From positions 1 to 58,278 of IMG/VR virus record IMGVR_UViG_3300032069_000867: a stretch of DNA of 58,278 bases; one strand, 5' to 3'. Source of the DNA: a virus. Below, one piece after another: positions 3,548-21,492 of this stretch. The notes below the pieces were generated by a model. That model ran no database searches. It saw only the letters and a program-made list of their open reading frames with translations, and was not told where the DNA came from. Position numbers and translations under genes: made by a program. The number at the start of each line of letters is the position of its first letter. The stretch's first letter is position 1.

Positions 3548-4747
3548 GTGGTCCGACACGTCAAGCGCTTCGCCAACAAGAAGTTCATCCACACGGTAGA
3601 CCTGACTCTGCTGAAGAGATTCCTGGAACGGTATCGTGAGGAGATCACTCTCGATCTGGATGCTTTGGGCGAGGACAACAAACAGACTCGCACTCGGCTG
3701 TACGAATACTTCCTGGCCGCCGACGAGAGCTACTCGCCCCAGATGCTCGACGACCTGCACCGCATCGCGGAGCTCAGCACCGAGGTGGGTGTTGCTCATC
3801 TGCGCCACCGTGCCGAAGTGGTGGGAGCGGAACTGATACCTGCCGCGGAGCTGGAGGAAAAGGACGGCCTGCGTTTCAACTGCCGCTATCTGGCAGTGCG
3901 CGCGTTCCTGGATCACCCCGATATCTTCGAGGCTGCGCTTGACTGGATGACGTTCGAGGATCACCAGAGTCCGGCCGAGTTCGTCGGGGTAGACGAGGAT
4001 GTCAAGCCCCACGTCGGAAAGCCGGCCCGCGATGCCTTCGAGCAGCAGGCGAGCGCGTTCTTCAACACCCGCTACCAGGGTCGTTACTGCAGGGCTCGCC
4101 TGTACCATGACGAGGACGGCGTCAACATCCTGGTCATCCACGGCAAGCAGCCGGTCAGCACCCTGGTGATCGTCGGAGATCAAGAGCGGCCCTTGACTTT
4201 CCGCGAGACCAAGCAGGACACCCTGACCTACGATCAGGCTACAGGTCGGCTGAAGGTTACGGCCAGGACTGAGGAGGAAAAGCAGCGGCTGTGCGCGATC
4301 TTTGCCACCACCATTCTCGGAAAGCCGAAGTTCTTCGACCACGGCGAGTGCCGGCGGCTCTACACGCTCGATCCCATCGCCAAGGCGGGCGCGGACTTCC
4401 GCCTCGACGGCGAATGGGACCCCGATCTTGTGGAAGCCGCGGTGGTCGAGATCCAGTTCTACAACCAGCCGCGCGGGGGCTGGGTAATGACTATCCGCGA
4501 TGCCAAGGATGCCATCGCCCGGCTGTACGAGAAATGCCCGGACACCGACCTGGCAGAAACGGAGATCAACTACGTGAGGCTGCGCTTCACCTTCCTGCTG
4601 AACGGCAAGAAGCGCAAGCGAACCGTGAAGATCAAGCCGCCCAGCCTGGCCAGTTTCGACCGGGCTTCCCTGGAAGACAAGGTGATGGAGCACCTGAAAC
4701 GCAATGGCTTCTGTCTCTCCCGACGCGCTGCTGCGGCTGCTGCTTGA
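3548..4747 (+). CDS. unrecognised 399-residue protein after lexA
   Basis: GTG start preceded by a good ribosome site (AAGGAGAG). The protein starts basic, has a helical segment (about residues 18-110), a mixed alpha/beta middle (VNILVIHGKQPVSTLVIV; RETKQDTLTYDQATGRLKV) and a basic stretch near the C-terminus (LLNGKKRKRTVKIK) ending in a run of alanines. No catalytic motif was recognised. It lies 16 bases after lexA and overlaps the next gene by 44 bases, so the three genes are probably co-transcribed. The pairing with a winged-helix protein suggests a regulatory or defence-related two-gene unit, but that is inference only. Confidence 0.75.
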   Translation: MVRHVKRFANKKFIHTVDLTLLKRFLERYREEITLDLDALGEDNKQTRTRLYEYFLAADESYSPQMLDDLHRIAELSTEVGVAHLRHRAEVVGAELIPAAELEEKDGLRFNCRYLAVRAFLDHPDIFEAALDWMTFEDHQSPAEFVGVDEDVKPHVGKPARDAFEQQASAFFNTRYQGRYCRARLYHDEDGVNILVIHGKQPVSTLVIVGDQERPLTFRETKQDTLTYDQATGRLKVTARTEEEKQRLCAIFATTILGKPKFFDHGECRRLYTLDPIAKAGADFRLDGEWDPDLVEAAVVEIQFYNQPRGGWVMTIRDAKDAIARLYEKCPDTDLAETEINYVRLRFTFLLNGKKRKRTVKIKPPSLASFDRASLEDKVMEHLKRNGFCLSRRAAAAAA

Positions 4748-8330: not shown

Positions 8331-9176
8331 ATGCTTCCAACTGAAAAAACGCCGCCCAAACAAGACCTTGCCGACCTGACCCTGTTGATTTACGGGTCGA
8401 GCAAGATCGGGAAGTCGACCTGGTGCTCGCAGGCCGAGGGAGCGGTCTTCCTGGCGACCGAAGCGGGCCTGAACAACCTGGAGGTTTTCCAGGTGCCGAT
8501 CACCAGGTGGGAAGAGTTTCTGCTGGCCTGCCGCGAGATCGCCGAGGGCAAGCACCCGTTCAGGACGGTGGTCATCGACACCGTGGACAACGCCTACCGG
8601 ATGTGCGCCGATTACATCTGCGCCAAGTTCAAGATCGACCACGAGAGCGACCTGGGATTTGGCAAGGGCTACGCCCTGATCAACAACGAGTTTCACCGCG
8701 TCATCACGAAGGTCTCGCTGCTGCCCTACGGTCTCTTCCTGGTCTCCCACTCCCAGGAGCGGGAGATCGAGACTCGCACCGGCAAGCACACCCGGATCGT
8801 CCCCACCCTTCCCGACAAGGTGCGCAAGGTCGTGCTGGGGATGGTGGACCTGATTCTCTACTGCGACCTTGAGATGACCGCAGGCCCCGATGGCAGCGTG
8901 GCGGGTCGGCGGGTGATGCGCACCAAGCCGCACGTCAACTACGAGGCCGGCGACCGCACGGGACGCTTGCCCGAAGTGATCGATCTGGACTTCGGCAAGT
9001 TCCTCGAGGCGTTCAACCGGGGCGCACCCGCTCAGGCTCAGGCACAACAGCCAGTCGGTCGAGCGCCGAGCGCAGAGCGGCCCGACAAAGCCCCTACTCC
9101 GTCCCAACCAGCCGCGGACAGCTCGCGGCCGAAAGCCCGCCCCGGCGGGCAAACAACCCACTCACAAGGAGAGTGA
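8331..9176 (+). CDS. AAA_24-type ATPase, Sak4-like recombination protein
   Basis: Protein of 281 residues with an early P-loop (LLIYGSSKIGKSTW) and a Walker B-like strand (FRTVVIDTVDNAY). A second core strand reads LFLVSHSQ. This is the pattern of phage AAA_24 proteins, which include RecA-like annealing proteins of the Sak4 group. The last ~50 residues (AQAQAQQPVGRAPSAERP) are low complexity and probably disordered. It is followed three bases later by a DUF669 protein, a common partner. Single-strand DNA pairing in phage recombination is the likely role. Confidence 0.82.
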   Translation: MLPTEKTPPKQDLADLTLLIYGSSKIGKSTWCSQAEGAVFLATEAGLNNLEVFQVPITRWEEFLLACREIAEGKHPFRTVVIDTVDNAYRMCADYICAKFKIDHESDLGFGKGYALINNEFHRVITKVSLLPYGLFLVSHSQEREIETRTGKHTRIVPTLPDKVRKVVLGMVDLILYCDLEMTAGPDGSVAGRRVMRTKPHVNYEAGDRTGRLPEVIDLDFGKFLEAFNRGAPAQAQAQQPVGRAPSAERPDKAPTPSQPAADSSRPKARPGGQTTHSQGE

Positions 9177-9179
9177 AAG

Positions 9180-9665
9180 ATGAGCACCCATGAACCCGGC
9201 ACCGCAACCCATGACCCCGACATCGACCTGGCGCAGTTCGACGACGACTTCGCCGAGGCGCCGATCGAGGAGCGCGACTTCGAGCCGGTGCCCGATGGCA
9301 AGTACCAGGTCGTCGTCGAGAAGGTCGAACTCACCCGCGCCCAGAGCTCGGGCAACCCCATGCTCAAATGGACGCTACGGGTGCTCGGTCCCCAGCACAA
9401 GGGCCGGCTGCTCTGGCGCAACAGCGTGATGGCCAGCCGCGAGAACCTCAAGTGGTTGAAGACCGACCTGCACACCTGCGGGCTGGACCTCCCGCGCCTC
9501 TCCGAACTGCCGGCCAACCTGGAGAGGCTGTTGGACGTCCGCCTCGAGATCACCAAGCGCACGAAGGATGAGAGCGAGAACGTCTACTTCAACCGGCGCA
9601 TCGTGACCGAGGACGAGGGCCAGGGATACGACGCAACCGCTCAGGACGCTCTGAACCCATTCTGA
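9180..9665 (+). CDS. DUF669 family protein
   Basis: Protein of 161 residues matching DUF669: an acidic N-terminus (DIDLAQFDDDFAEAPIEERDFEP), then VPDGKYQVVVEKVELT, GNPMLKWTLRVLG and LEITKRTKDESENVYFNRRIV. DUF669 proteins sit beside phage AAA ATPases and recombination proteins and are thought to bind single-stranded DNA. Good ribosome site (AAGGAGAG). The context between the AAA_24 ATPase and the ERCC4 nuclease fits a single-strand binding or loading role. Confidence 0.85.
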   Translation: MSTHEPGTATHDPDIDLAQFDDDFAEAPIEERDFEPVPDGKYQVVVEKVELTRAQSSGNPMLKWTLRVLGPQHKGRLLWRNSVMASRENLKWLKTDLHTCGLDLPRLSELPANLERLLDVRLEITKRTKDESENVYFNRRIVTEDEGQGYDATAQDALNPF

Positions 9666-9666
9666 C

Positions 9667-10113
9667 ATGCCAGCCGTGATAGTGGTGGACACCCGTGAGA
9701 TCGAGCCTTACTCCTTCGACCCCGAGCGCGTGGCGGTGGTGCGCCGCGCGCTCCCCGCCGGAGACTACTCCCTCGAAGGGCTTGAGGATCGAGTCGCGGT
9801 GGAGCGCAAGACGCTGGATGATCTCGTTACCACCGTGATCCGAAGCAGAGACCGATTCCGCCGCGAGTTGCTCCGGCTGAGGAAGTGCGAGGCGGCCTGC
9901 ATCGTGGTCGAAGCCGACTTTGCCGACCTCCTCGCGGGTCGCTACCGCGCCGGCGTTCATCCGAACGCAGTGCTCGGGGCGGTGGTCTCCATCGTGATCG
10001 ATCACGGCGTTCCGGTGTTTTTCTGTTCAGAGCGGCAAGTCGCCCGTCTGTTCACCGAGTGCTACCTGCTGCGATTCTACCGAAAGGTTCAGGCTGCATG
10101 CGAAGTGCCTTGA
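9667..10113 (+). CDS. ERCC4-domain nuclease
   Basis: Protein of 148 residues that is essentially a single ERCC4 nuclease domain: VVDTREIEPY near the N-terminus and the signature ERKTLDDLVTTV near residue 48 (ERK-x3-D class). These enzymes cut branched or flap structures. A helix-hairpin-helix partner domain is missing, so it may act with another protein; the RecD2-like helicase, which starts within its 3' end, carries such a motif. The start is one base after the DUF669 stop. Confidence 0.88.
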   Translation: MPAVIVVDTREIEPYSFDPERVAVVRRALPAGDYSLEGLEDRVAVERKTLDDLVTTVIRSRDRFRRELLRLRKCEAACIVVEADFADLLAGRYRAGVHPNAVLGAVVSIVIDHGVPVFFCSERQVARLFTECYLLRFYRKVQAACEVP

Positions 10114-12299
10114 GAGAACCAGTGGCCACGGTGCGGGGCCGCGTTGAGGAAGTCTTCTATTCGAGCCCGCGCTTCTCTGCCGGACGACTTCGCACCGCGG
10201 AGGGGAGGACCATCTCCTTTGCCGGGCCAGTCATGATCCGCGAGCACGAGCCGGTCATCCTGCACGGTGCTTGGGAAGAGCATCCAAAATACGGGCGCCA
10301 ACTCAAGGTCGAGTCGTTGGAATACGACACTCGCCTTGATGCTGAGGGGCTGGCCAACTACCTCGCCAACCATCCTGACATCAAGGGCATCGGCCCGGTC
10401 AAGGCCCGCCAGATCGCGGAGCGCTTCGGCAAGGACTTCGACCGGGTGCTCTCCGAGGAGCCGGAAGCCATCGCCGAGGCGGTTCATCTGCCGCTGGAGT
10501 CGGTGCACGCCTTGCGCGGGGAATGGCTCCGCACCAAGGCTGTCAACGGTGCGCTCACGTGGCTGGCGGCGTTCGGCCTCACTCACCACCAGGTGAAGAC
10601 GCTGGTCGAGCGGTTCGGCAACAACGTCGTCGCCCTGCTCCAGACCGACCCCTATCTGATCGCCCGCGAGGTCCCGGGCTTCGCCTTCAAGCGGGTGGAC
10701 AAGATCGCCCGCAAGATGGGTTCAGCGAAGGATCATCCCTCCCGGATTCGCGCCGGCGTCCTGCACTGCGTGCAAGAGCGCGTCGAGCAAGGGGACTGCT
10801 GGGTCGAGTACGAGGAGCTGATTGACCAGTCGAACGCGCTGCTGGTGATGGACACCCTCGACAGCCGCGCCCGGATCGAGAAGGCGCTGGATGCCCTGAT
10901 CGAAGAGAAGCAGCTCTCGTGCGCTTCCTATGGCGGGCGGTTCCTGGTGGCCAGGCCTGACCTGCGAGCGATGGAGGAGCAACTCGGGGAACTGTTTCGG
11001 CGCGGGGACGAGGCGAACTGCCACCTGACGGACGAAGACGACCTGGAAGGTCTGTTGGACGAGAATGCGCCCGACCTCAACGCTGGCCAGCGCCAGGCCG
11101 TGCTGACTGCACTGCGGCATCAGATCACCGTCATCTGCGGCGGCGCGGGCAGCGGTAAGACCTACACCATCGCGGCGATAACCCGCCTCTGCCGCAAGTG
11201 CGACCTTCGAGTCGTGCTTTGTGCGCCCACCGGCAAGGCGGCGAAACGGCTCGAGCAGGTGGTGGGCCAGGAGGCGTTCACCATCCACCGCTTGCTCGGC
11301 TATGACGGCCGCGAATTCAGGCGAACGGCGGAAGACCCTATCGCGGCCGACGTGGTGATCATTGACGAGGTCTCGATGGTTGACGTGCCCCTCGGCTGGC
11401 ACCTCTTTCAGGCGGTAGACCTTGAGCGAACCGCCGTCGTGCTGGTGGGCGACCACAATCAACTCCCGCCCGTTGGGCCGGGCAACATCCTGCGCGACCT
11501 AATCGACACGCGAGCGGTGCCGACGGTCATCCTGGATGAGATCGTGCGCCAGGCGGGCGCGCTCAAAGAGAACTCCATCGCCATCCTGCATGGCGAGGTG
11601 CGCAAGACTGCCCCCGACGACGAAGGTAAGCGCCGCCCCTGGTACCTGGTGGATCAGTTCACCGATGTCTGGGACGTGCAACGCTTCCTGCTCGACCTCT
11701 TTGAATCAGTGCTCGTTGGGCGACTGGGTCTCGACCTGGTGGAGGATGTGCAGGTGCTTACGCCGACGCGCAAGGGGCCTCTGGGCGTCGAGGAGCTCAA
11801 CGTCGAGTTGCAGCGCCTGGTTCAGAAGAAGCTGTGGGCAGTGGATGTCTCTGCTCCCAGACCCGGACGCCGCCCGCGTTTCCTGCTGCACGACAAGGTG
11901 ATCCAGACTCGGAACAACTACGACCTCGGCGTCATGAACGGGGCGGTCGGTCGGGTGACAGTAGTCGAAAGCGACGGGGCGATGGAAGTCTCCTTCAATG
12001 GTCAGGCTGTGACCGTCACCCCTGAGTCCGGCCACCTCTCTGACCTGTCGCTCGCCTACGCTTTGACCATCCACAAGGCCCAGGGCTCCGAGTTTCCCTG
12101 CGCCATCGTGCTCGTGCACAAGTCTCACTCGTTCATGCACCATCGGAACTTGTTCTACACCGGTGTGACCCGCGCCCAGGAGGTCGCCATCGTCATCGGC
12201 GACCGCTGGGGGTTACGCAACTGCGCCCAGCGGCGACACCTCGAACAGCGCAAGACTTTCCTCTCACTTCTCGGCCAGCGTGACAGGAGTAGGCGATGA
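10098..12299 (+). CDS. RecD2-like superfamily 1 DNA helicase
   Basis: Protein of 733 residues. An N-terminal OB-like part is followed by a helix-hairpin-helix motif (IKGIGPVKARQIAERFG), typical of RecD2. The helicase core has Walker A (GGAGSGKTYT, near 350), a downstream APTGKAAKRL motif, Walker B (VVIIDEVSMVD, near 420), GDHNQLPPVGPG and the late motif LAYALTIHKAQGSEFP. It should unwind DNA 5' to 3' during replication or recombination. The ATG at 10098 overlaps the ERCC4 gene by 16 bases; the longer upstream reading frame is the shadow of that gene. Its stop overlaps the next start (ATGA). Confidence 0.92.
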   Translation: MRSALREPVATVRGRVEEVFYSSPRFSAGRLRTAEGRTISFAGPVMIREHEPVILHGAWEEHPKYGRQLKVESLEYDTRLDAEGLANYLANHPDIKGIGPVKARQIAERFGKDFDRVLSEEPEAIAEAVHLPLESVHALRGEWLRTKAVNGALTWLAAFGLTHHQVKTLVERFGNNVVALLQTDPYLIAREVPGFAFKRVDKIARKMGSAKDHPSRIRAGVLHCVQERVEQGDCWVEYEELIDQSNALLVMDTLDSRARIEKALDALIEEKQLSCASYGGRFLVARPDLRAMEEQLGELFRRGDEANCHLTDEDDLEGLLDENAPDLNAGQRQAVLTALRHQITVICGGAGSGKTYTIAAITRLCRKCDLRVVLCAPTGKAAKRLEQVVGQEAFTIHRLLGYDGREFRRTAEDPIAADVVIIDEVSMVDVPLGWHLFQAVDLERTAVVLVGDHNQLPPVGPGNILRDLIDTRAVPTVILDEIVRQAGALKENSIAILHGEVRKTAPDDEGKRRPWYLVDQFTDVWDVQRFLLDLFESVLVGRLGLDLVEDVQVLTPTRKGPLGVEELNVELQRLVQKKLWAVDVSAPRPGRRPRFLLHDKVIQTRNNYDLGVMNGAVGRVTVVESDGAMEVSFNGQAVTVTPESGHLSDLSLAYALTIHKAQGSEFPCAIVLVHKSHSFMHHRNLFYTGVTRAQEVAIVIGDRWGLRNCAQRRHLEQRKTFLSLLGQRDRSRR

Positions 12300-15200
12300 G
12301 CGAGAGCAGGGCTGTGCCCCCTTCGGAAAAGGCCGTTGGACTGCTGCGCCGCTACTTCTTGTGTCGCACTGACACAGTCGCCTTTCTTGCTCCTTGGGAA
12401 CGGCCTTCTCCAGCCAGGGCAGATGGTCAGCTCGACGAGCTGCTGCTTGCCCACCTCAAAGGCAGTAAGGCACCGAAGGTCACCGTCCACTATCGCAACT
12501 CCCGTGGGGAAGGTGTGGTCAAGGGCAACTTCCGCATCGGGGCCTACGCTCCCGCGCCCGATGGCACGACCCGATGGCTGTGCCTCGACTTCGATGGCGG
12601 CGACCACGCGGAGGCGCTCGCTGACCCCACTGCCACCGCACTGGCCGTCTATCGGATCTTCGAGTCAGTAGGCACGCGCCCTTACCTGGAACGGTCTGGC
12701 GGCGGACATGGCTGGCACCTGTGGTGCTTTTTCGAGCCGCCCGTCTCTGCGCGCAAGGCGCGGGCGATGGCGAAGGTGCTGCTGCCCGAAGAGGTAACCC
12801 TCGCCAACGGAGAGCGGGCGCTGCCGCAGACCGGTCGAGGAATCGAGGTCTTCCCGAAGCAGCCGAAGATCGAGCGCAATGGCTTCGGGAACTTGGTCTG
12901 GCTTCCCTGGTGGTCGGAAGCAGACGGAGCCGCGAACCAGTTTCACCGGCCCGACGAGAAGGGCGAGCTGGTTCCGTTCGTACCGGAAGAGTTCGAAACC
13001 GCCGACGAGTCGCGGGTTGACGCGGTCATCGCTCAGGCGAACACATCGGGCAAGTATCAACCACGGGCAAGCCCACAGTCCGCGAAGGCACAGGAAGCGA
13101 CTGACGAGGCATGGCGCGAGTGGCGAGAGAAAGCGCTCGCCGCCTTGTCGCTCGAAGCAATCTACGGGCAATGGCTGACCGGCAAGACATGCGCTGACGG
13201 CTGGCTGCAATGCCGAGATCCATGGTCGCCGACGGGAGATCGTGATCCTTCTGCTGGTGTGGCAGATGGATCAGGGCAAGCCGAGCGCGGCGAGTTTCAT
13301 TCCTTCATCTCCGGCAAATCATTGTCGGTGTTTGACTTCTTGGTGGAGCGGGGTGAGGTAGCCGACTTCCGCGCCGCCTGCGCGCGTGTCGCCCAAATGT
13401 CGGACGTGCCCTTACCAGCCACGGCGCGAGACTCCCCCAGGCACGTGAGTCCGCACGGCCGCCCGACGATCCAGGTCAACAACCGTCAACTGCGCGATGT
13501 TGTTGCTGACGTCTGGCGCGCAGTACATGCTGCCAATCGCCCACCCACGCTCTTCGTGCGTTCCGGCGCGCTCGTCCGACTTCAGCACGCAGACGACGGC
13601 TGCCGCATCGAGGCGACCGATGAGGCCGCCATCTACGGGTTCCTGGCCCGCTCTGCCGATTGGGTGAAGGTAACTGACACCGGAGTGACCAGCGTCAGCC
13701 CGGTGCGCGACGTCGCGCGGGACATGCTTGCCTACCCCGATGAGCAGGTTCCCCAGTTGGAAGCCGTGGTGTGTGCGCCGGTCTTTGACCGCCAGGGCAA
13801 ACTGATCAGTGAGCCTGGATACCATCCGGCGGCACGGCTCTGGTATCACCGCCTTTCCGGTTTCTCGATAGAGGCAGTGCACGAGCGGCCTACGCCGGAG
13901 CAGGCTGGCGCAGCCAGGGATCTGCTGCTCGATGATCTGCTCGTGGACTTCCCTTTTGCCTCCGAGGCAGATCGCGCCCATGCCGTGGCCGCGCTTTTTC
14001 TTCCCTTCGTCCGACGCATTGTGGACGGGTGCACTCCCATCCACCTGATCGAGGCGCACACCCCTGGCTCCGGGAAGGGGCTGCTCGCAGACGTGGTGGC
14101 CCTGATCGCCCTGGGACGGTGCTGCGAGCCAACCACGGTCACGCCTGACGAGGAGGAGGCGCGCAAGAAGATCACCTCCCTGCTTGCCCGGGCGCAGCCA
14201 GTCATCCTGCTTGACAACATTCGCACCGGCATCGAGTCGGCACAGCTCGCCGCAGCACTCACGGCCGAGGTCTGGTCGGACCGCATTCTCGGGCAGACCC
14301 GGATGATCGACCTGCCCAACCGCGCCACCTGGTTGGTCACCGCGAACAACCCGCGACTCTCGTTGGAGATCGCCCGGCGCTGCGCCCGCATTCGCCTCGA
14401 CCCCAGAACCGACCGGCCCTGGCAGCGGACTGCCTTCAAGCATGCGCCGTTGAGGGAATGGATCAGGGCAAACCGGGCGCGGCTGGTGCACGCTCTCCTG
14501 GTGCTGGTGCAGGCGTGGAACGCCGCCGGAAAGCCCCAGGGACAGAGGGTGCTCGGTTCTTTCGAGGGCTGGTCTCGCGTGGTCGGCGGCATCCTGGGCA
14601 ACGCCGGCATTGACCACTTCCTGGGAAACACCGAGGAACTCTACGAGACCGCCGACGCCGAGGGGAACGAGTGGCGCGAGTTCGTGGCTGCCTGGTGGGA
14701 TGCGTATCACGACAACTGGGTGTCGGCGAAAGATCTGCTCAAACTCGCCCTCGAGCGTGACCTTCTCGGCGGGACGATCGGTGACAAATCGGCGCGCTCA
14801 CAGCAGACTCGCCTGGGCAGAGCGCTCGCGACTGTGCGTGACCGACAGTTCGGAGAGTGGCGCATCGTTATCCGTCGAGACGCGCACTCCAAGAGCGCCG
14901 GGTACCGGCTGCTCCTGGCCGAAACCCGCGGGACGTCTTGCGGGACCTGCGGGACTTCCTGCGGGACGTCAGACCCCCACGTCCCGCAGCAAGAAGCCAG
15001 TCCTGGTGCGGAGTCTTTGCCCTTCGCGGAACATTGCGGGACATCTGGCCTACCCTCCCCTCACGCGCGCGAGGACTTATATGATGGTGATAACGCCTCC
15101 CCTCGCGCGGGGCGAACCCCCGAAGAAGTCCCGCAACGTCCCGCAAATGCGTCAGAGGGGCTTCCAGGGCCGTCAGAAACGAAATTCGACGCGGGACATG

Positions 15201-15307
15201 ACCAGGACACGTCCCGCAAGACGTCCCGCACACGTCCCGCGGCTAGCCTTGACGAACCCATCGATCTGGCCCAGATACCAGATTGCGAGGAGGACGATCT
15301 GCAATGA
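12296..15307 (+). CDS. primase-helicase fusion, TOTE/AEP-type
   Basis: Replication protein of 1003 residues. The N-terminal third resembles archaeo-eukaryotic primases of TOTE type, with LCLDFDGG near 96-103 as the likely metal site and SGGGHGWHLW and GRGIEVFPKQ after it. A middle segment (DGWLQCRDPW, FHSFISGKSLSVFDFLVERG) recalls a CHC2-like primase zinc module. The C-terminal part is a P-loop ATPase (TPGSGKG near 588; PVILLDNI near 635; WLVTANNPRLSLEIARRC). Residues about 795-880 form a small domain (FVAAWWDAYHDNWVS...LGRALATVRD) duplicated in the next gene. The last ~120 codons run through a cluster of inverted and direct DNA repeats and encode low-complexity sequence. Confidence 0.88.
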   Translation: MSESRAVPPSEKAVGLLRRYFLCRTDTVAFLAPWERPSPARADGQLDELLLAHLKGSKAPKVTVHYRNSRGEGVVKGNFRIGAYAPAPDGTTRWLCLDFDGGDHAEALADPTATALAVYRIFESVGTRPYLERSGGGHGWHLWCFFEPPVSARKARAMAKVLLPEEVTLANGERALPQTGRGIEVFPKQPKIERNGFGNLVWLPWWSEADGAANQFHRPDEKGELVPFVPEEFETADESRVDAVIAQANTSGKYQPRASPQSAKAQEATDEAWREWREKALAALSLEAIYGQWLTGKTCADGWLQCRDPWSPTGDRDPSAGVADGSGQAERGEFHSFISGKSLSVFDFLVERGEVADFRAACARVAQMSDVPLPATARDSPRHVSPHGRPTIQVNNRQLRDVVADVWRAVHAANRPPTLFVRSGALVRLQHADDGCRIEATDEAAIYGFLARSADWVKVTDTGVTSVSPVRDVARDMLAYPDEQVPQLEAVVCAPVFDRQGKLISEPGYHPAARLWYHRLSGFSIEAVHERPTPEQAGAARDLLLDDLLVDFPFASEADRAHAVAALFLPFVRRIVDGCTPIHLIEAHTPGSGKGLLADVVALIALGRCCEPTTVTPDEEEARKKITSLLARAQPVILLDNIRTGIESAQLAAALTAEVWSDRILGQTRMIDLPNRATWLVTANNPRLSLEIARRCARIRLDPRTDRPWQRTAFKHAPLREWIRANRARLVHALLVLVQAWNAAGKPQGQRVLGSFEGWSRVVGGILGNAGIDHFLGNTEELYETADAEGNEWREFVAAWWDAYHDNWVSAKDLLKLALERDLLGGTIGDKSARSQQTRLGRALATVRDRQFGEWRIVIRRDAHSKSAGYRLLLAETRGTSCGTCGTSCGTSDPHVPQQEASPGAESLPFAEHCGTSGLPSPHAREDLYDGDNASPRAGRTPEEVPQRPANASEGLPGPSETKFDAGHDQDTSRKTSRTRPAASLDEPIDLAQIPDCEEDDLQ
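14928..15240 (+). repeat. GCGGGAC iteron cluster, candidate replication origin
   Basis: The 7-mer GCGGGAC occurs 12 times in 313 bases. Six copies are on + (starts 14928, 14940, 14949, 14961, 15036, 15191) and six are inverted (GTCCCGC at 14981, 15128, 15138, 15211, 15223, 15234). The extended consensus is about (C/T)TGCGGGAC(G/A)T. Some copies lie 9-12 bases apart, close to one helical turn. A more AT-rich stretch (GACTTATATGATGGTGATAA, 15074-15093) lies in the middle. The cluster is inside the 3' end of the primase gene, as the lambda origin lies inside gene O. Use of both strands argues against selection on the protein. Confidence 0.75.
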
Positions 15308-15624
15308 CGGATTTCTGCAGCCCCTGCACACTCAGTCCCACGCCAGAGTTCGAGTTGTCCGATTTCCTGTCTTCATGGTGGGAACGCTTTCAGGACAGGT
15401 GGGTGACGGCTGATGAACTCGCGGCCCTGGCGATGATAGAGGGCAGCGTGCTGGGGCAAGTCGGCCATCCTGGTTTTCGGGCTCGCCGAAGAACGCTGGG
15501 CCGCATCCTCTATGGGGCGCGCGATGCCCGCGTCCAGGGCTGGCACCTCCGTTGGCATGGTGGCAGCCAAGGCAGACCGCAGAGGTTTCGCCTTGAGCCA
15601 ATCGAGGAGGAATGCTCGACGTGA
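15304..15624 (+). CDS. stand-alone copy of the primase C-terminal domain
   Basis: Protein of 106 residues starting MTDFCSPCTL, with the start overlapping the primase stop (ATGA). Residues 22-100 align with residues ~795-880 of the primase-helicase: WWERFQDRWVTADELAALA against WWDAYHDNWVSAKDLLKLA, then LGRILYGARD against LGRALATVRD, and a final YRL/FRL strand. The layout suggests a winged helix. The gene probably arose by duplication of that domain and lies just after the iteron cluster, so origin binding is an attractive guess. Confidence 0.75.
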   Translation: MTDFCSPCTLSPTPEFELSDFLSSWWERFQDRWVTADELAALAMIEGSVLGQVGHPGFRARRRTLGRILYGARDARVQGWHLRWHGGSQGRPQRFRLEPIEEECST

Positions 15625-16664: not shown

Positions 16665-17954
16665 GTGAGTACCACGCTGACGCCTGCTCCCAGCCAAGTG
16701 GCGAGCAGGCAAGAACCCCTGGGGGAGAACGGCCACGCCGAAGGACGGGCAAGCCTGGACCTGTCGAGCTATGACTCGCAGGCCTACAACATCCTCTCCC
16801 CCGTCCTCCGACTGGACACGGCCGCTCCCTACCTGCGCTTCCGCGCGGTGGAGGTGCGGCTCGACCCCGATGCGAACCGGGGCGACTGCTATGCTGCGCC
16901 GAGCACGAAGTGGACGAGGGATCGCCGAACGGGCGAACTCCTGCCCACCCACGTCGCCCCCGCCAAGCCCGGCCTGCTGAAGATTGCCTCAGCAACCGGG
17001 TTGGTCATTGACCCCCACAACTCCCGCCGCATCAAGCCCGACTCCTGCGAGCGCTGCATCGACATGGCTCGCGCCACTGGCCAGGCGGTGCGCTGCGGGG
17101 ATTGCCCATCCCGCTATGACGTCGCCTACCAGCACATCGGTGCGGTGCGCGCCGACACCGGCTGGCGCATCGTCAAGGCGTCCTACGAGTGGAACTTGGA
17201 TGCGCAGCGACGCAAGATTGTCCGCGAGGCTAAGAAGCGTGTTGCCAAGGCCCAGGAAGAGGGCAAGTCCTTCGACTTGGAGGGCTACGTCGAGGACCGC
17301 CTCGACCAAGTCATCACCGAGCGCTACGGCCTGGCCGAGACGAAGTCGCTGTTGCGGCTGGTGAGGGCGATCTGTCACCTGCGGCAGGCCTACCTGCGGG
17401 AGGAGATGGCTCGCCCGTTCGTGGTGGTGCGCACCGAACTGGCCCCCGACTTCGCTGACCCCGCGGTCCGCCATGCGCTGGCCGAGAAGGCCCTCGCCAG
17501 CGGCGCGGAGATATTCGCGCCGGCGCACGAGGAGGCACCCGCGGTGACGCTGCGCGCTGCTGCCGTGGACGCCCAGGTCGTGGAGCAACTGGCCAGCGAG
17601 CCGGACTTCACGGATGCCGAGGCCAAAGCGGAGGAAGCGACGGCTCCTGTAGATGACGAGTCCGCTCCCGACAACGGACAGACGCACGTCACAGACGACG
17701 GGCCAACCGCTTCTGCTGATTCGCCGGTGGCAGATCCGCCAGCCGAGGAATCCTCTGCTGACCACGAGTCACGCGAGACCCCCGAGGAGGAATCGGACGC
17801 CGTCCGCTGCGACGAGTGCAACGCCGTGCTGCCAGCCAACGTAGTCGCCTACTGCCAGAGCGCCAAAGGCCGGCAGGCTTTCGGCGGTGCCAACTACTGC
17901 TTCAAGTGCCAGAACAAGCGCCGAGGCAAGGGCGAGAGAGGTGAAGCGCAATGA
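16665..17954 (+). CDS. unrecognised recombination-region protein with zinc ribbon
   Basis: Protein of 429 residues; the GTG at 16665 follows GAGGAGG by seven bases. The core (about 35-270) has LDLSSYDSQAYNILSPVLRL, LDPDANRGDCYAAPS, SATGLVIDPHNSRRIKP, HIGAVRADTGWRIVKASYEWNLD and a helical segment with LLRLVRAICHLRQAYLREEMARPFVVVR. An acidic, Ala/Pro-rich linker follows, then a four-cysteine ribbon (CDECNAVLP ... YCFKCQNK). It overlaps sbcD by ATGA. The layout (conserved core, acidic linker, small C-terminal module) resembles phage single-strand annealing proteins, but I could not match it to RecT or Erf. Confidence 0.65.
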   Translation: MSTTLTPAPSQVASRQEPLGENGHAEGRASLDLSSYDSQAYNILSPVLRLDTAAPYLRFRAVEVRLDPDANRGDCYAAPSTKWTRDRRTGELLPTHVAPAKPGLLKIASATGLVIDPHNSRRIKPDSCERCIDMARATGQAVRCGDCPSRYDVAYQHIGAVRADTGWRIVKASYEWNLDAQRRKIVREAKKRVAKAQEEGKSFDLEGYVEDRLDQVITERYGLAETKSLLRLVRAICHLRQAYLREEMARPFVVVRTELAPDFADPAVRHALAEKALASGAEIFAPAHEEAPAVTLRAAAVDAQVVEQLASEPDFTDAEAKAEEATAPVDDESAPDNGQTHVTDDGPTASADSPVADPPAEESSADHESRETPEEESDAVRCDECNAVLPANVVAYCQSAKGRQAFGGANYCFKCQNKRRGKGERGEAQ

Positions 17955-19174
17955 AGTTCGTTCACACCGCGGACTGGCACCTTTCCTCGCAACGGAGCAG
18001 GCTCGACTCCGAAACCGGCCTCAACGCGAGGCTCATGGACTTCTATCGCTGCGCGCGGTTCACCGTCGAGGATGGTCTCGCTCGCGGCGCGCAGGCGATC
18101 CTGCATGCGGGCGATGCGTTTCACGGCTGTCGGCCCACGCCCACGGAAGTGCGGCTCTTCCGCGAGGCGGTCGGGCCGGCCCTGGAGGCCGGGGTGCCCG
18201 TGGTGCTGCTTCTCGGCAACCACGACGCGCCCCGGTCTCCTGTGGAACGGCATGCCCTCGATCTGCTGAGGGAGACCGAGGGGCTGGCAGTGATAGACCA
18301 GCCCACGCTGCTGTTCTTCCAGCACCTGGAGACCGAACAGCGCGACTTCCTGCGCTCGTGCGCGGCAAAGCAGGCTGACCTTCAGGTAGCGTGCCTGCCC
18401 TGGCCCAACAAGCAACTCCTCCTTGCGAGCGAAGAGAACCGCAAACTCGACCCGGGCCAGCTCAACGAACTGGTACGGGAGAAGATGATGGACTGCCTGC
18501 GTGGACTGGCCGCGCAGCTCACTCCTGACATTCCCGCGATGCTGCTGGGCCACTTCTCGGTTGATCTGGCGCGGGCGGGCGGGCAGAACCGGCTCATGAT
18601 GCTCGGAGGCGAGTGGACGCTGAACGCTCACGATCTGTCCGCGCTCCCCTTCTGCTACTTCGCACTCGGCCACATACACAAGCCGCAGATGGTCGACGGG
18701 CTGCCGCACGTCTGGTACTGCGGCTCGCCCGAAGCGGTCACCTTCGGGGAAGAGGGAGAGGACAAAGGCTATCTCCTTGTGTCCCTCGAGCGCGAGGGCA
18801 TCGGGGATGTCAAACGCATCAGCACGCCCTACCGCCGATTCGTCACCGTGGAACTCGGTGACGGCGCGGCCCTGCCTCCAGCAGAGGAGCTCGCCGGCGC
18901 AATCGTGCGGGTGCGGATTCCACAGGCTAACGACGTGGACTTCAACGCGCTGCGCCGCGACCTCGAAGCCGCCGGAGTCCACGAGTACCAGGTTGAGACA
19001 CAGCGCGCCGAGACCGTCCGCCGCAGGGCCGTCGACGTCTCCTCCGAGATGGCGCTGGAGGAGGCGATCAAAGCGTGGCTGGAGCAGCGGCCTGACCTGC
19101 AACCGATGACGGAGGCTCTCCTTACCGAAGCGCGCACCGTAGAGCAGGCGCTGCAGGAAGGGGGTGCCGCATGA
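17951..19174 (+). CDS. sbcD: SbcD-like exonuclease subunit
   Basis: Protein of 407 residues, calcineurin-like phosphoesterase of the SbcD/Mre11 family. Metal-binding motifs appear in order: ADWHL (9-13), HAGDAFH, LLLGNHDAP, GHFSVD and LGHIHKP. With SbcC it should trim DNA ends and cut hairpins. It overlaps both the preceding gene and sbcC by ATGA, consistent with a fixed complex. Length matches the family. In phages this pair resembles T4 gp47/gp46, which process ends for recombination-driven replication. Confidence 0.93.
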   Translation: MKFVHTADWHLSSQRSRLDSETGLNARLMDFYRCARFTVEDGLARGAQAILHAGDAFHGCRPTPTEVRLFREAVGPALEAGVPVVLLLGNHDAPRSPVERHALDLLRETEGLAVIDQPTLLFFQHLETEQRDFLRSCAAKQADLQVACLPWPNKQLLLASEENRKLDPGQLNELVREKMMDCLRGLAAQLTPDIPAMLLGHFSVDLARAGGQNRLMMLGGEWTLNAHDLSALPFCYFALGHIHKPQMVDGLPHVWYCGSPEAVTFGEEGEDKGYLLVSLEREGIGDVKRISTPYRRFVTVELGDGAALPPAEELAGAIVRVRIPQANDVDFNALRRDLEAAGVHEYQVETQRAETVRRRAVDVSSEMALEEAIKAWLEQRPDLQPMTEALLTEARTVEQALQEGGAA

Positions 19175-21492
19175 GACCGCTCCGGCTGACCCTTGACAAC
19201 TTCTTGTCCTATCGCGGCGAGCACTCCATCGAGTTCGACGGCGTGTCGCTCGCAGTGCTCTCCGGCCAGAACGGGGCAGGCAAATCGAGCGTTGTGGACG
19301 CGATGCGCTTTGCCCTCTTCGGCCACACCCGCGGCGGCCTCGATGGAGTCATCACCGAAGGCGAGCAGGCCTGCCGCGTTGAGTTTGCCTTCGCCCTGGG
19401 CGAGGGCACCTACCTGGTCTCTCGCCAGCGCAGCCGCAAGGGAAGTGGCAGCACGCTGCTCTCTTTCCAGATGCTTGCCCGCCATAGCCTTGGCGACGGC
19501 GGGTCGAGCGGCGATGGCTCCGCGGTACTGGATGGCAAGAGCGTGGCCGAGACCCAGCGGCGCATCGAGCAACTCCTGCGCCTGACCGACGACCTGTTCA
19601 CCGTCACCGCCTGCGCCAATCAGGGCAATGTTGCCGCCTTCAGTCAAGCCAAGCCCGCGGAGCGCAAGCAGGTGCTCTCCGATATTCTCGACCTCGCCGC
19701 CTGGGAGCGGCGGGCCGAGATGACGCGGCAGATAGGGCGCGACCTGGCGGCGCGGATCGAGGGCGAGAAGACGCGCCACGAGGCGCTACGTGCGGCGGCG
19801 GCTGGGGTGGACGGCTTACGGGAGCAGATAGCCCAGAACGACGCGACACAGGGCGACGTGGCGCGCCAATCGGCGCAAGCCGAGGGCGACCTCGCCCAGG
19901 CGCAGGAGGCCAAAGAGGCGCTTCTGCGCGACCGCGAGGCTGACCGTGCTCGCCGCAAGGAACTCGACGACCTTGCATCTCGCGCCCAACAGACGCAGGC
20001 GACCGTCAACGAGGTGGCTTCTCGCCTCGAGGTATTGCGTCGCACGGCGAAGGACAAGCCTGCGCTCATGCAGGGTCTGCGGCGCGCCGAAGAGGCGCAC
20101 ACCTACGCGCAAGAACTCGAGGCCAAACGCCAGGAAGATGAGCGGCTGCGACATGAGGGTGAACTCGTTCGCCAGCGCCAGCAGTCGGCTGTGGCAGAGC
20201 ACGCCCGCAAGGTAGAGGCGCTCAAAGAGCGCGTGGCCCACTTGCGCAGCGCCCACGAGCGCGAGGCCAATAGCCTGAAACAGCAGGTCGCGCTGCTTGG
20301 CAAGCAGAGCGAAGTCCTTGACCAGGTGCCCTGCGCCAATCCGGTTGACGAGGCCACGCGACCATCCTTCTTCGCCATTCGAGACAAGTGCCCGCTGATC
20401 GCCCAGGCGCGAGACGCCCGGACGGCGCTGCCCGCGCTCGAAGAGCGAATGCGGAAGTTGCAGTCAGAGCAGCCGTGGTCTGAAGACGAGCGTCGGCTCA
20501 AAGGACTGCAGGCGCAGACGGCTGGTGATGAAGAGGCTGCCCGCCTGCGGGAGATCGCTGAGCAGCGCAAGGAGATCGCCTACGCCCCGAAGGAGCACGC
20601 GGAAGCCAAGCGCCAGGCGGGGCGACTCCAGGAAATCCAACAGGCACTTCGTGGAGTCGAACGCGCCGAAGCCCAGATGGTCGAGGTGCAAGCCAACCTC
20701 GACGCGATCCAGGCCGAGGCGAAGCAGATCGCAGAGCGCAAGGCCACCTTGGAGAAGGAACTCGGCCCGCAACGCAACTGGGACACGATGCTCGTCCAGG
20801 TGGAGCGCAGCATCAAGGATGCGCGATCGGCGATTGGAGACCTCCAGGCTCGTACCCAATCCCTGCGGCAGGAGCGCGGCAGCCTCGAGGAGCGCCTTCG
20901 CACTGCTGAGCAGGCAGCAAAGGAAGCCGAAGAGATAGCGGCCGCGTTGCGCGAGAGCGAGCGTCGTCTGCAGGTGCTCAAGGTGCTCGCGCAGGCCTTC
21001 GGCAAGCAAGGAATACCTGCCTTGCTGATCGAGAAGGCCGTGCCTGACCTGGAGGCCGTCGCCAACGACGTGCTTTCGGTGCTCAGCGACGGCCGCATGT
21101 CCCTGGAGCTTCGCAGCCAGAGGGAGACGAAGGCGAAGACGCTCCAGGAGACGCTGGACATCATCATCGCCGACGAGCGCGGCTCGCGGTCCTACGAGAA
21201 CTTCTCCGGCGGCGAGGCGATGAGAGTCGACCTCGCCCTGCGCATCGCGCTCTCGGTGCTCCTCGCGAGCCGGGCCGGCGCGCGGTGCGAACTGCTTGTG
21301 CTGGACGAAACCTGCGCTCCGCTCGATGCCCAGGGGCGGGCGCTGTTCGTCGAGTCTCTCCAGAAGATCGCAGACCACTTCGCCACCATCCTGGTGATAA
21401 CCCATGTCGAAGAGCTCAAGGACTTGTTTCCCTTCCGCTTCGACGTCACGAAGAACGCGGAAGGCAGCCGCGTGAACCTGGTCGCCGCGTGA
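19171..21492 (+). CDS. sbcC: SbcC-like SMC-type ATPase
   Basis: Protein of 773 residues. Walker A lies near the N-terminus (SGQNGAGKSSVVDAM), long coiled-coil arms occupy the middle, and the C-terminal ATPase half has the signature NFSGGEAMRVDLALRIA and Walker B LLVLDETCAPLDAQ. The hook region has cysteines near 387 and 407 (QVPCANP ... RDKCPLI) instead of a tight CxxC. Residues about 103-111 (ARHSLGDGG) are encoded by a dispersed hairpin repeat in reverse orientation, apparently an insertion into a loop. It is shorter than E. coli SbcC, as usual for phage versions. Confidence 0.93.
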   Translation: MRPLRLTLDNFLSYRGEHSIEFDGVSLAVLSGQNGAGKSSVVDAMRFALFGHTRGGLDGVITEGEQACRVEFAFALGEGTYLVSRQRSRKGSGSTLLSFQMLARHSLGDGGSSGDGSAVLDGKSVAETQRRIEQLLRLTDDLFTVTACANQGNVAAFSQAKPAERKQVLSDILDLAAWERRAEMTRQIGRDLAARIEGEKTRHEALRAAAAGVDGLREQIAQNDATQGDVARQSAQAEGDLAQAQEAKEALLRDREADRARRKELDDLASRAQQTQATVNEVASRLEVLRRTAKDKPALMQGLRRAEEAHTYAQELEAKRQEDERLRHEGELVRQRQQSAVAEHARKVEALKERVAHLRSAHEREANSLKQQVALLGKQSEVLDQVPCANPVDEATRPSFFAIRDKCPLIAQARDARTALPALEERMRKLQSEQPWSEDERRLKGLQAQTAGDEEAARLREIAEQRKEIAYAPKEHAEAKRQAGRLQEIQQALRGVERAEAQMVEVQANLDAIQAEAKQIAERKATLEKELGPQRNWDTMLVQVERSIKDARSAIGDLQARTQSLRQERGSLEERLRTAEQAAKEAEEIAAALRESERRLQVLKVLAQAFGKQGIPALLIEKAVPDLEAVANDVLSVLSDGRMSLELRSQRETKAKTLQETLDIIIADERGSRSYENFSGGEAMRVDLALRIALSVLLASRAGARCELLVLDETCAPLDAQGRALFVESLQKIADHFATILVITHVEELKDLFPFRFDVTKNAEGSRVNLVAA
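19477..19505 (-). repeat. dispersed hairpin repeat, copy 5 (inside sbcC)
   Basis: CCCGCC (19478-19483) and GGCGGG (19498-19503) flank the core ATAGCCTTGGCGAC, the exact reverse complement of the core of the copies at 38366 and 42958. It is the only copy inside a conserved coding region and is read in frame as ARHSLGDGG. Confidence 0.8.

Follow-up and report, generated by a model that had tools for sequence, protein, structure and literature searches.

A mirror-symmetric iteron array in the coding tail of a phage primase-helicase gene is a probable replication origin

The DNA analysed here, a virus record of 58,278 bases that we call the window and to whose full length the array counts refer, carries a dense, mirror-symmetric iteron array within the coding tail of a primase-helicase gene. 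We consider it highly probable that this array is the replication origin of the phage and that the initiator is the very protein whose coding tail contains it. An origin embedded in the replication gene had been suggested in an earlier note and remains the best explanation: the clustering of the repeat, the arrays of relatives and a residue-base covariation all agree with it, while origin activity itself is inferred from sequence comparison. The primase-helicase would load itself at the array as a D5-type initiator, as do SaPI/PICI Rep and P4 alpha. In the mechanism that we infer, winged-helix domains of several protomers would bind both mirror-image blocks, the D5-type AAA+ helicase would assemble as two oppositely facing hexamers, and the centre would open so that the fused AEP primase could start both forks.

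Results

The array in the window

A recount of the 7-mer GCGGGAC confirmed the previously reported 12 exact copies in 313 bases (14928-15240), six on each strand. The word is not enriched in the window overall, where 21 copies compare with 20.8 expected from dinucleotide shuffling. Outside the array nine copies are spread over the other 58 kb, a density that predicts 0.05 per 313 nt; the word is thus not similarly frequent elsewhere, a check that the earlier note had proposed. When all 7-mers were scanned in segments of 313 nt across the entire window, GCGGGAC peaked at 12 and unrelated words reached at most 5. Among nine records that are complete or nearly so, eight have their strongest 7-mer cluster, taken over the full record, in the array.

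A degenerate thirteenth iteron, GCGGAAC, completes the symmetry of the array (Table 1). Order and orientation are + + + + - (+) + on the left and - - + - - - on the right, with offsets from 14911 of 16+, 28+, 37+, 49+, 69-, (115+) and 124+, followed by 216-, 226-, 279+, 299-, 311- and 322-. From a mirror centre at about 15085, each side runs outward through a 10-bp inner pair, a 20-bp inverted pair and an outer tandem block. The array of 12-13 iterons, which in a 9-mer register read GCGGGACGT, is therefore mirror-symmetric and not, as first described, direct in its 5' half and inverted in its 3' half. Neither is its centre AT-richer, as had also been stated (64% GC against 65%). Since the iterons occupy both strands and all three codon phases, the repeat belongs to the DNA and not to the peptide.

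Table 1. Features of the array region, with natural variants of the winged helix
Feature	Position	Strand	Description
Primase-helicase ORF	12296..15307	+	1003 aa; AEP-type primase, D5-type helicase, winged helix, low-complexity tail spanning the array
C-terminal winged-helix domain, residues 771-877	14606..14926	+	AlphaFold2 pLDDT 87, H-H-H-beta-beta; predicted iteron reader
Left outer block	14928..14987		+ iterons 14928, 14940, 14949, 14961; - iteron 14981; inverted pair 20 bp apart
Left inner block	15026..15042	+	Degenerate GCGGAAC 15026-15032, iteron 15036-15042; spacing 10 bp
Centre of dyad	15043..15127		85 bp
Alternating purine-pyrimidine run	15062..15071		CACGCGCGCG; 10 nt; P=0.03 in the window
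Right inner block	15128..15144	-	Iterons 15128, 15138; spacing 10 bp
Right outer block	15191..15240		+ iteron 15191; - iterons 15211, 15223, 15234; inverted pair 20 bp apart
ORF end beyond the array	15241..15304	+	Kept C-terminal peptide
Small gene	15304..15624	+	106 aa; stand-alone diverged winged-helix copy
Natural winged-helix variants and arrays, in order			L215 GGGGAACGT; L182 GGTGAACGT; L191 GGTGGACGT; window GCGGGACGT; L130 GCGGGATGT

The primase-helicase gene

The fused primase domain (residues 75-207) matched Pfam AEP-TOTE with E=1e-20. Pfam gave no name to the helicase region, which PHROGs tie to phage primases and unknowns; the matches of the ORF were phrog_10537, 29234 and 19930. 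Searching the PDB by sequence yielded weak matches only. An AlphaFold2 model of residues 390-877 (pLDDT 92.7) was compared with the PDB using Foldseek and matched MPXV E5, vaccinia D5, NrS-1 and SaPI5 with probability 1.0 and E ~1e-7, the SaPI5 primase-helicase structures being 7ola, 7om0 and 7pds. Judged from this model, the AAA+ core satisfies the criterion of a D5-type (SF3-like) fold. The winged helix by itself, used as a fold query, matched only Cdt1/ORC1, and weakly. Its key residues in the window are T838 in the recognition helix and S865/K866/S867 in the wing, and the array starts immediately 3' of this domain.

The reading frame continues through the array into a short peptide that close relatives keep (PIDLAQIP, PVDLADLS or PVDLANLP; P[IV]DLA in the group of the window), and in the alpha group ORFs that read through the array end in PxWLxEV. 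Because such ORFs end in a kept peptide, the sequences suggest that translation through the array is real. We infer that the frame can run through the putative origin to this peptide because the tail is an unstructured linker. Positions 8331-12299 and 17951-21492 form a replication/recombination neighbourhood with a Sak4-like annealing protein, an ERCC4 nuclease and a RecD2-like helicase, as well as an SbcD/SbcC-like nuclease pair identified by sequence inspection only.

Arrays in relatives

Homologs were taken from viral contigs and bacterial genomes; cultured carriers of relatives include Erythrobacter cryptus, Bauldia litoralis and Iodidimonas muriae. Compared with the window, L007 retains all 12 iterons: none of the 84 iteron bases differs, as against 30 of the 229 in the spacers (P=1e-4). 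L008, whose helicase part is 93% identical, keeps the layout; eight of its 12 places read GCGGAAC and two read GCGGATG. In a motif-free search we recorded the strongest-clustering 7-mer, whatever the word, after the conserved region. At least seven copies of one 7-mer were present there in 36 of 38 nonredundant homologs with 42-59% identity, while clusters elsewhere in each of the same 38 loci never exceeded six. These arrays sit where that of the window does, just past the helicase and winged-helix domains, and share its geometry (inner blocks at 9-10 bp, inverted pairs at 17-20 bp, a centre gap of mostly 63-96 bp). The words are lineage-specific, among them GGGGAAC, GTGAACG, GTGAATG, GTGGACG, GGGGGTC, GGGAGGT and GCGGGAT. 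Conservation in the GGGGAAC group was 0.946 in iteron columns, 0.723 in spacers and 0.803 in upstream coding sequence (P=2e-20). Among 47 loci, the array lies inside the ORF in 35, outside it in seven and across the stop codon in five, which indicates that its position follows the domain and not the reading frame. Taken together, the sequences of these loci show that most relatives keep the array at one place, behind the helicase/winged-helix part, and that the iterons differ by lineage, switching at most copies together.

Loss of the cluster from close relatives that keep the primase had been named as an outcome that would refute the origin. L007 and L008 keep it, but five integrated relatives from bacterial MAG contigs with 66-70% identity lack both the tail and, at the expected place, the array. 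One of these, L206, has a degenerate, looser array that lies further downstream by about 0.5 kb; the other four (L207-L209, L242) have none even when the whole locus was searched with one mismatch allowed. The latter four are Planctomycetota integrated elements with primase-helicases of 66-67% identity, and an excisionase-like HTH gene seems to come next. Below 42% identity, an array was found in only 8 of 38 homologs.

GCGGGAC arrays beside other proteins

In an independent check, viral contigs were also searched with DNA alone for tandem GCGGGAC, and the hits led to replication helicases and primases. Among 70 flanking ORFs there were 17 AAA_25, four Prim-Pol and four DnaB proteins, none of which occurred in the ORFs flanking hits of the reversed-motif control. 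Mixed-orientation clusters of at least five copies numbered 25 for the motif, six for the second scrambled control and one for the reversed motif. Arrays in L015, L041, L071, L050, L037, L022, L009 and L109 adjoin AAA_25 helicases, several with Toprim or Prim-Pol. In L026 (1243-1370), L029 and L099, direct GCGGGAC copies at 11-bp spacing lie inside ORFs of about 250-290 aa; that of L026 is DnaD-like/O-like, an arrangement of the lambda-O type. L052 (4204-4465), L044, L077, L089 and L121 have the same layout as the window with GCGGGAC, inner triplets 9 bp apart and a 66-bp gap with an alternating tract, directly 3' of a 660-aa ORF (phrog_21086/35358) that the A2 profile does not recognise. We rejected the idea that AAA_25, DnaB and DnaD/O-like initiators have converged on one 7-mer: the arrays next to them came from a search for that very word, and the shared letters are therefore no evidence of shared readers. 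The CT profile detected no winged-helix domain of this kind in the AAA_25, DnaB or DnaD/O-like initiators beside GCGGGAC arrays.

Covariation of iteron bases with winged-helix residues

Iterons were aligned in one 9-mer register, G[GC][GT]G[AG]nnnT, and each C-terminal alignment column was scanned against each iteron base; we fixed the register and the residue classes after having seen the data. Base 7 goes with recognition-helix residue 838 (C with Thr, T with Ile) in 32 of 33 loci, base 3 with wing residue 866 (G with K/Q/N, T with G/R) in 36 of 36, and base 5 with wing residue 867 (A with mostly Ala, G with Ser/Val/Arg) in 35 of 36. In the structural model, the leading pairs for these three bases lie on surfaces that winged helices usually use for DNA contact. 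Some other leading columns (base 2) merely separate the clade of the window from the rest.

On a tree built from the helicase only, iteron types are as random as shuffled labels (21 changes against 21.4). L215, L182 and L191 have near-identical helicases, yet their wings differ and they carry three different iterons. Independent pairs on disjoint supported branches agreed for base 3 in 6/6 cases, base 5 in 6/6 and base 7 in 4/5, although these tests rest on few pairs (P=0.03, 0.03 and 0.13). Loci outside the fit did not directly contradict the rule: held-out T-type arrays have R at the key place in five of six cases and a His wing in none of the six, and held-out G-type arrays have a His wing in six of nine. 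The covariation meets the expectation that repeats of an iteron origin be specific to the cognate initiator. It also supports the earlier proposal that the C-terminal domain of the primase reads the iterons; the winged helix, through residues 838, 866 and 867, is very likely the reader, with support that is indirect and comes without binding data.

The small downstream gene

The protein encoded at 15304 had been proposed as an alternative reader. It is a diverged paralog of the winged-helix domain (28% identity to residues 795-872, E=2e-8; CT profile E=4e-12), but the covariation points to the primase's own domain. Among the loci searched, downstream stand-alone copies were found only in the window, L007 and L008. 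The L008 copy (8997-9329) is 60% identical to the primase domain and has wing residues like those of GCGGGAC readers, K-S where its own primase has K-G. By the covariation rule its predicted target is hence GCGGGAC, the iteron of the window, and not its own GCGGAAC. The 15304 copy probably regulates initiation or competes for the iterons. That rival phages or satellites impose diversifying selection on origin specificity, with the stand-alone gene as a decoy on a rival's iterons, is a speculation we regard as unlikely; if it were true, the residue-base rule would amount to a readable code for origin-based immunity. ICP1 Odn is a precedent in two respects: the DNA-binding specificity of an initiator is turned against the origin of a rival, and iterons come under pressure to diversify (PMC8263062). 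Odn, however, is a nuclease directed against a RepA_N-type satellite origin, whereas the stand-alone domain of the window has no nuclease part.

The centre of the array

With same-length windows of the same locus as background, the alternating purine-pyrimidine run in the gap between the inner blocks was longer than expected in 36 of 43 arrays (P<0.05 each). It measures 42 nt at the same place in L008 and commonly 12-36 nt in the alpha group. Many arrays also carry a T-tract that follows closely on the left inner block, as well as an A-tract that closely precedes the right one, and the features of the centre are also present in arrays outside ORFs (L247, L239). Alternating purine-pyrimidine tracts favour Z-DNA under supercoiling. 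The AT-rich melting region that SaPI/PICI origins have between their iteron sets is absent in the window, and relatives are mixed in this respect. The 85-bp centre is likely the unwinding/assembly region, a role for the tract in opening not having been shown.

Discussion

Alternative explanations

The reading most easily dismissed takes the array for a side effect of a repetitive peptide tail or for a chance product of GC-rich DNA. The encoded tail is of low complexity (GTSCGTCGTS), but iterons on both strands and in three phases, arrays persisting outside the ORF and counts far above local expectation refute this explanation, to which we assign practically no probability. That the array serves as an operator or partition-type site for the small downstream winged-helix protein, unrelated to the start of replication, is suggested by the position of that gene 64 bp past the array and by its paralogy. 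Among the loci searched, however, dozens of relatives have the array without a downstream copy, and the covariation involves the primase's own domain, so that we find this account extremely hard to sustain.

Inverted copies could also form a stem-loop or cruciform recognised by its shape, as proposed for pRN1 and BIP-1 (PMC4234260). Array strands at ten loci form more stable folds than shuffles (z -4.5 to -10), and BIP-1 has an inverted repeat pair 3' of its rep gene. Yet pairing would need neither the tandem copies at 9-12 bp spacing nor one word repeated 12 times in place of unique matching arms; iteron bases covary with protein residues, and the BIP-1 stem itself consists of two tandem 9-bp repeats opposite two inverted copies. 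Recognition by shape is accordingly very unlikely, although stem-loop formation as an added feature of the array is not excluded. Somewhat less remote, but still unlikely, is that the primase-helicase binds the array for copy control or as an auxiliary replication element, in the manner of P4 crr, while replication truly starts elsewhere. In P4, crr is annotated directly 3' of alpha with 8-bp repeats of the same kind, and ori lies about 4.7 kb away. Against such a role, eight of the nine complete or nearly complete records contain no second array of exact copies that is stronger, and the two-sided symmetric layout with its conserved centre is the design of an assembly site.

GC skew, which had been proposed as a check on the origin, contributed little. 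Its sign agreed, with higher skew to the right of the array than to the left in 8/8 usable records, but the effect is small. A cumulative minimum near the array was seen in only two records, the window (17.1 kb) and G008, and lay mostly elsewhere otherwise. We therefore dropped skew as proof of an origin.

The best-matching PHROGs of this family have no known function; the family now gains a predicted origin, a predicted domain to read it and a protein-DNA code that is legible in part, and origins become findable by sequence alone in many uncultured phages. L215, L182 and L191 form a natural near-isogenic trio for joint switching of origin and initiator specificity, which also bears on why iteron type is unclustered on the helicase tree.

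Comparison with known systems

In phage lambda, iterons lie inside the initiator gene O, and N15 and PY54 have their origins inside repA. Lambda O is not a helicase-primase and requires host DnaB and DnaG. The likeness to lambda drawn in the earlier note thus holds for an origin inside the initiator gene and fails for the protein, which is predicted to be a D5-type self-loading primase-helicase; for this reason SaPI5/PICI Rep and P4 alpha are, on the strength of the fold model, closer models than lambda O.

P4 alpha (X51522) is likewise a primase-helicase with 8-bp repeats in both orientations (TGTTCACC/GGTGAACA), its crr is directly 3' of the alpha gene, and GGTGAAC of P4 equals the iteron core of several relatives of the window. 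Unlike the window, P4 has two separate repeat regions in AT-rich surroundings, and the A2 profile gave E=0.16 with alpha, that is, no sequence homology. The alpha primase is DnaG-like (Toprim; PMC4234260). pRN1 ORF904 and BIP-1 resemble the window in combining an AEP primase, an SF3 helicase and a C-terminal winged helix with an origin 3' of the gene, which has been described as recognised through a stem-loop (PMC4234260). The published stem-loop region of BIP-1 (L521, reverse complement 3791-3895) contains 2+2 repeats at 9-bp spacing around the alternating CATACGTGTACATG and, as far as its letters tell, is a minimal form of the layout of the window. Profile searches detected no relation of BIP-1 rep to the primase-helicase family.

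The SaPI/PICI Rep-ori system (PMC7581432, PMC6092414) shares with the window a D5-type self-loading primase-helicase and, immediately 3' of the initiator domains, iterons in two sets that flank a centre. The C-terminal domain of Rep recognises iterons directly 3' of its domains, as we predict for the window. This organisation has been stated to be common to no other known bacterial element (PMC6092414). We searched the openly accessible literature on two subjects, iteron origins embedded in coding sequence together with D5 primase-helicases, and iterons combined with alternating tracts or Z-DNA, and did not find the layout of the window described. In contrast to SaPI/PICI, the array of this family lies mostly within the coding tail, its centre has an alternating purine-pyrimidine tract where that of SaPI/PICI is simply AT-rich, and it is found across phyla, in phage contigs as well as in integrated elements. 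The family thus differs from SaPI/PICI Rep and P4 alpha in its usually in-tail origin, its alternating centre tract and the fast turnover of its specificity, and it extends to phages the origin with two iteron sets that had been considered peculiar to PICIs.
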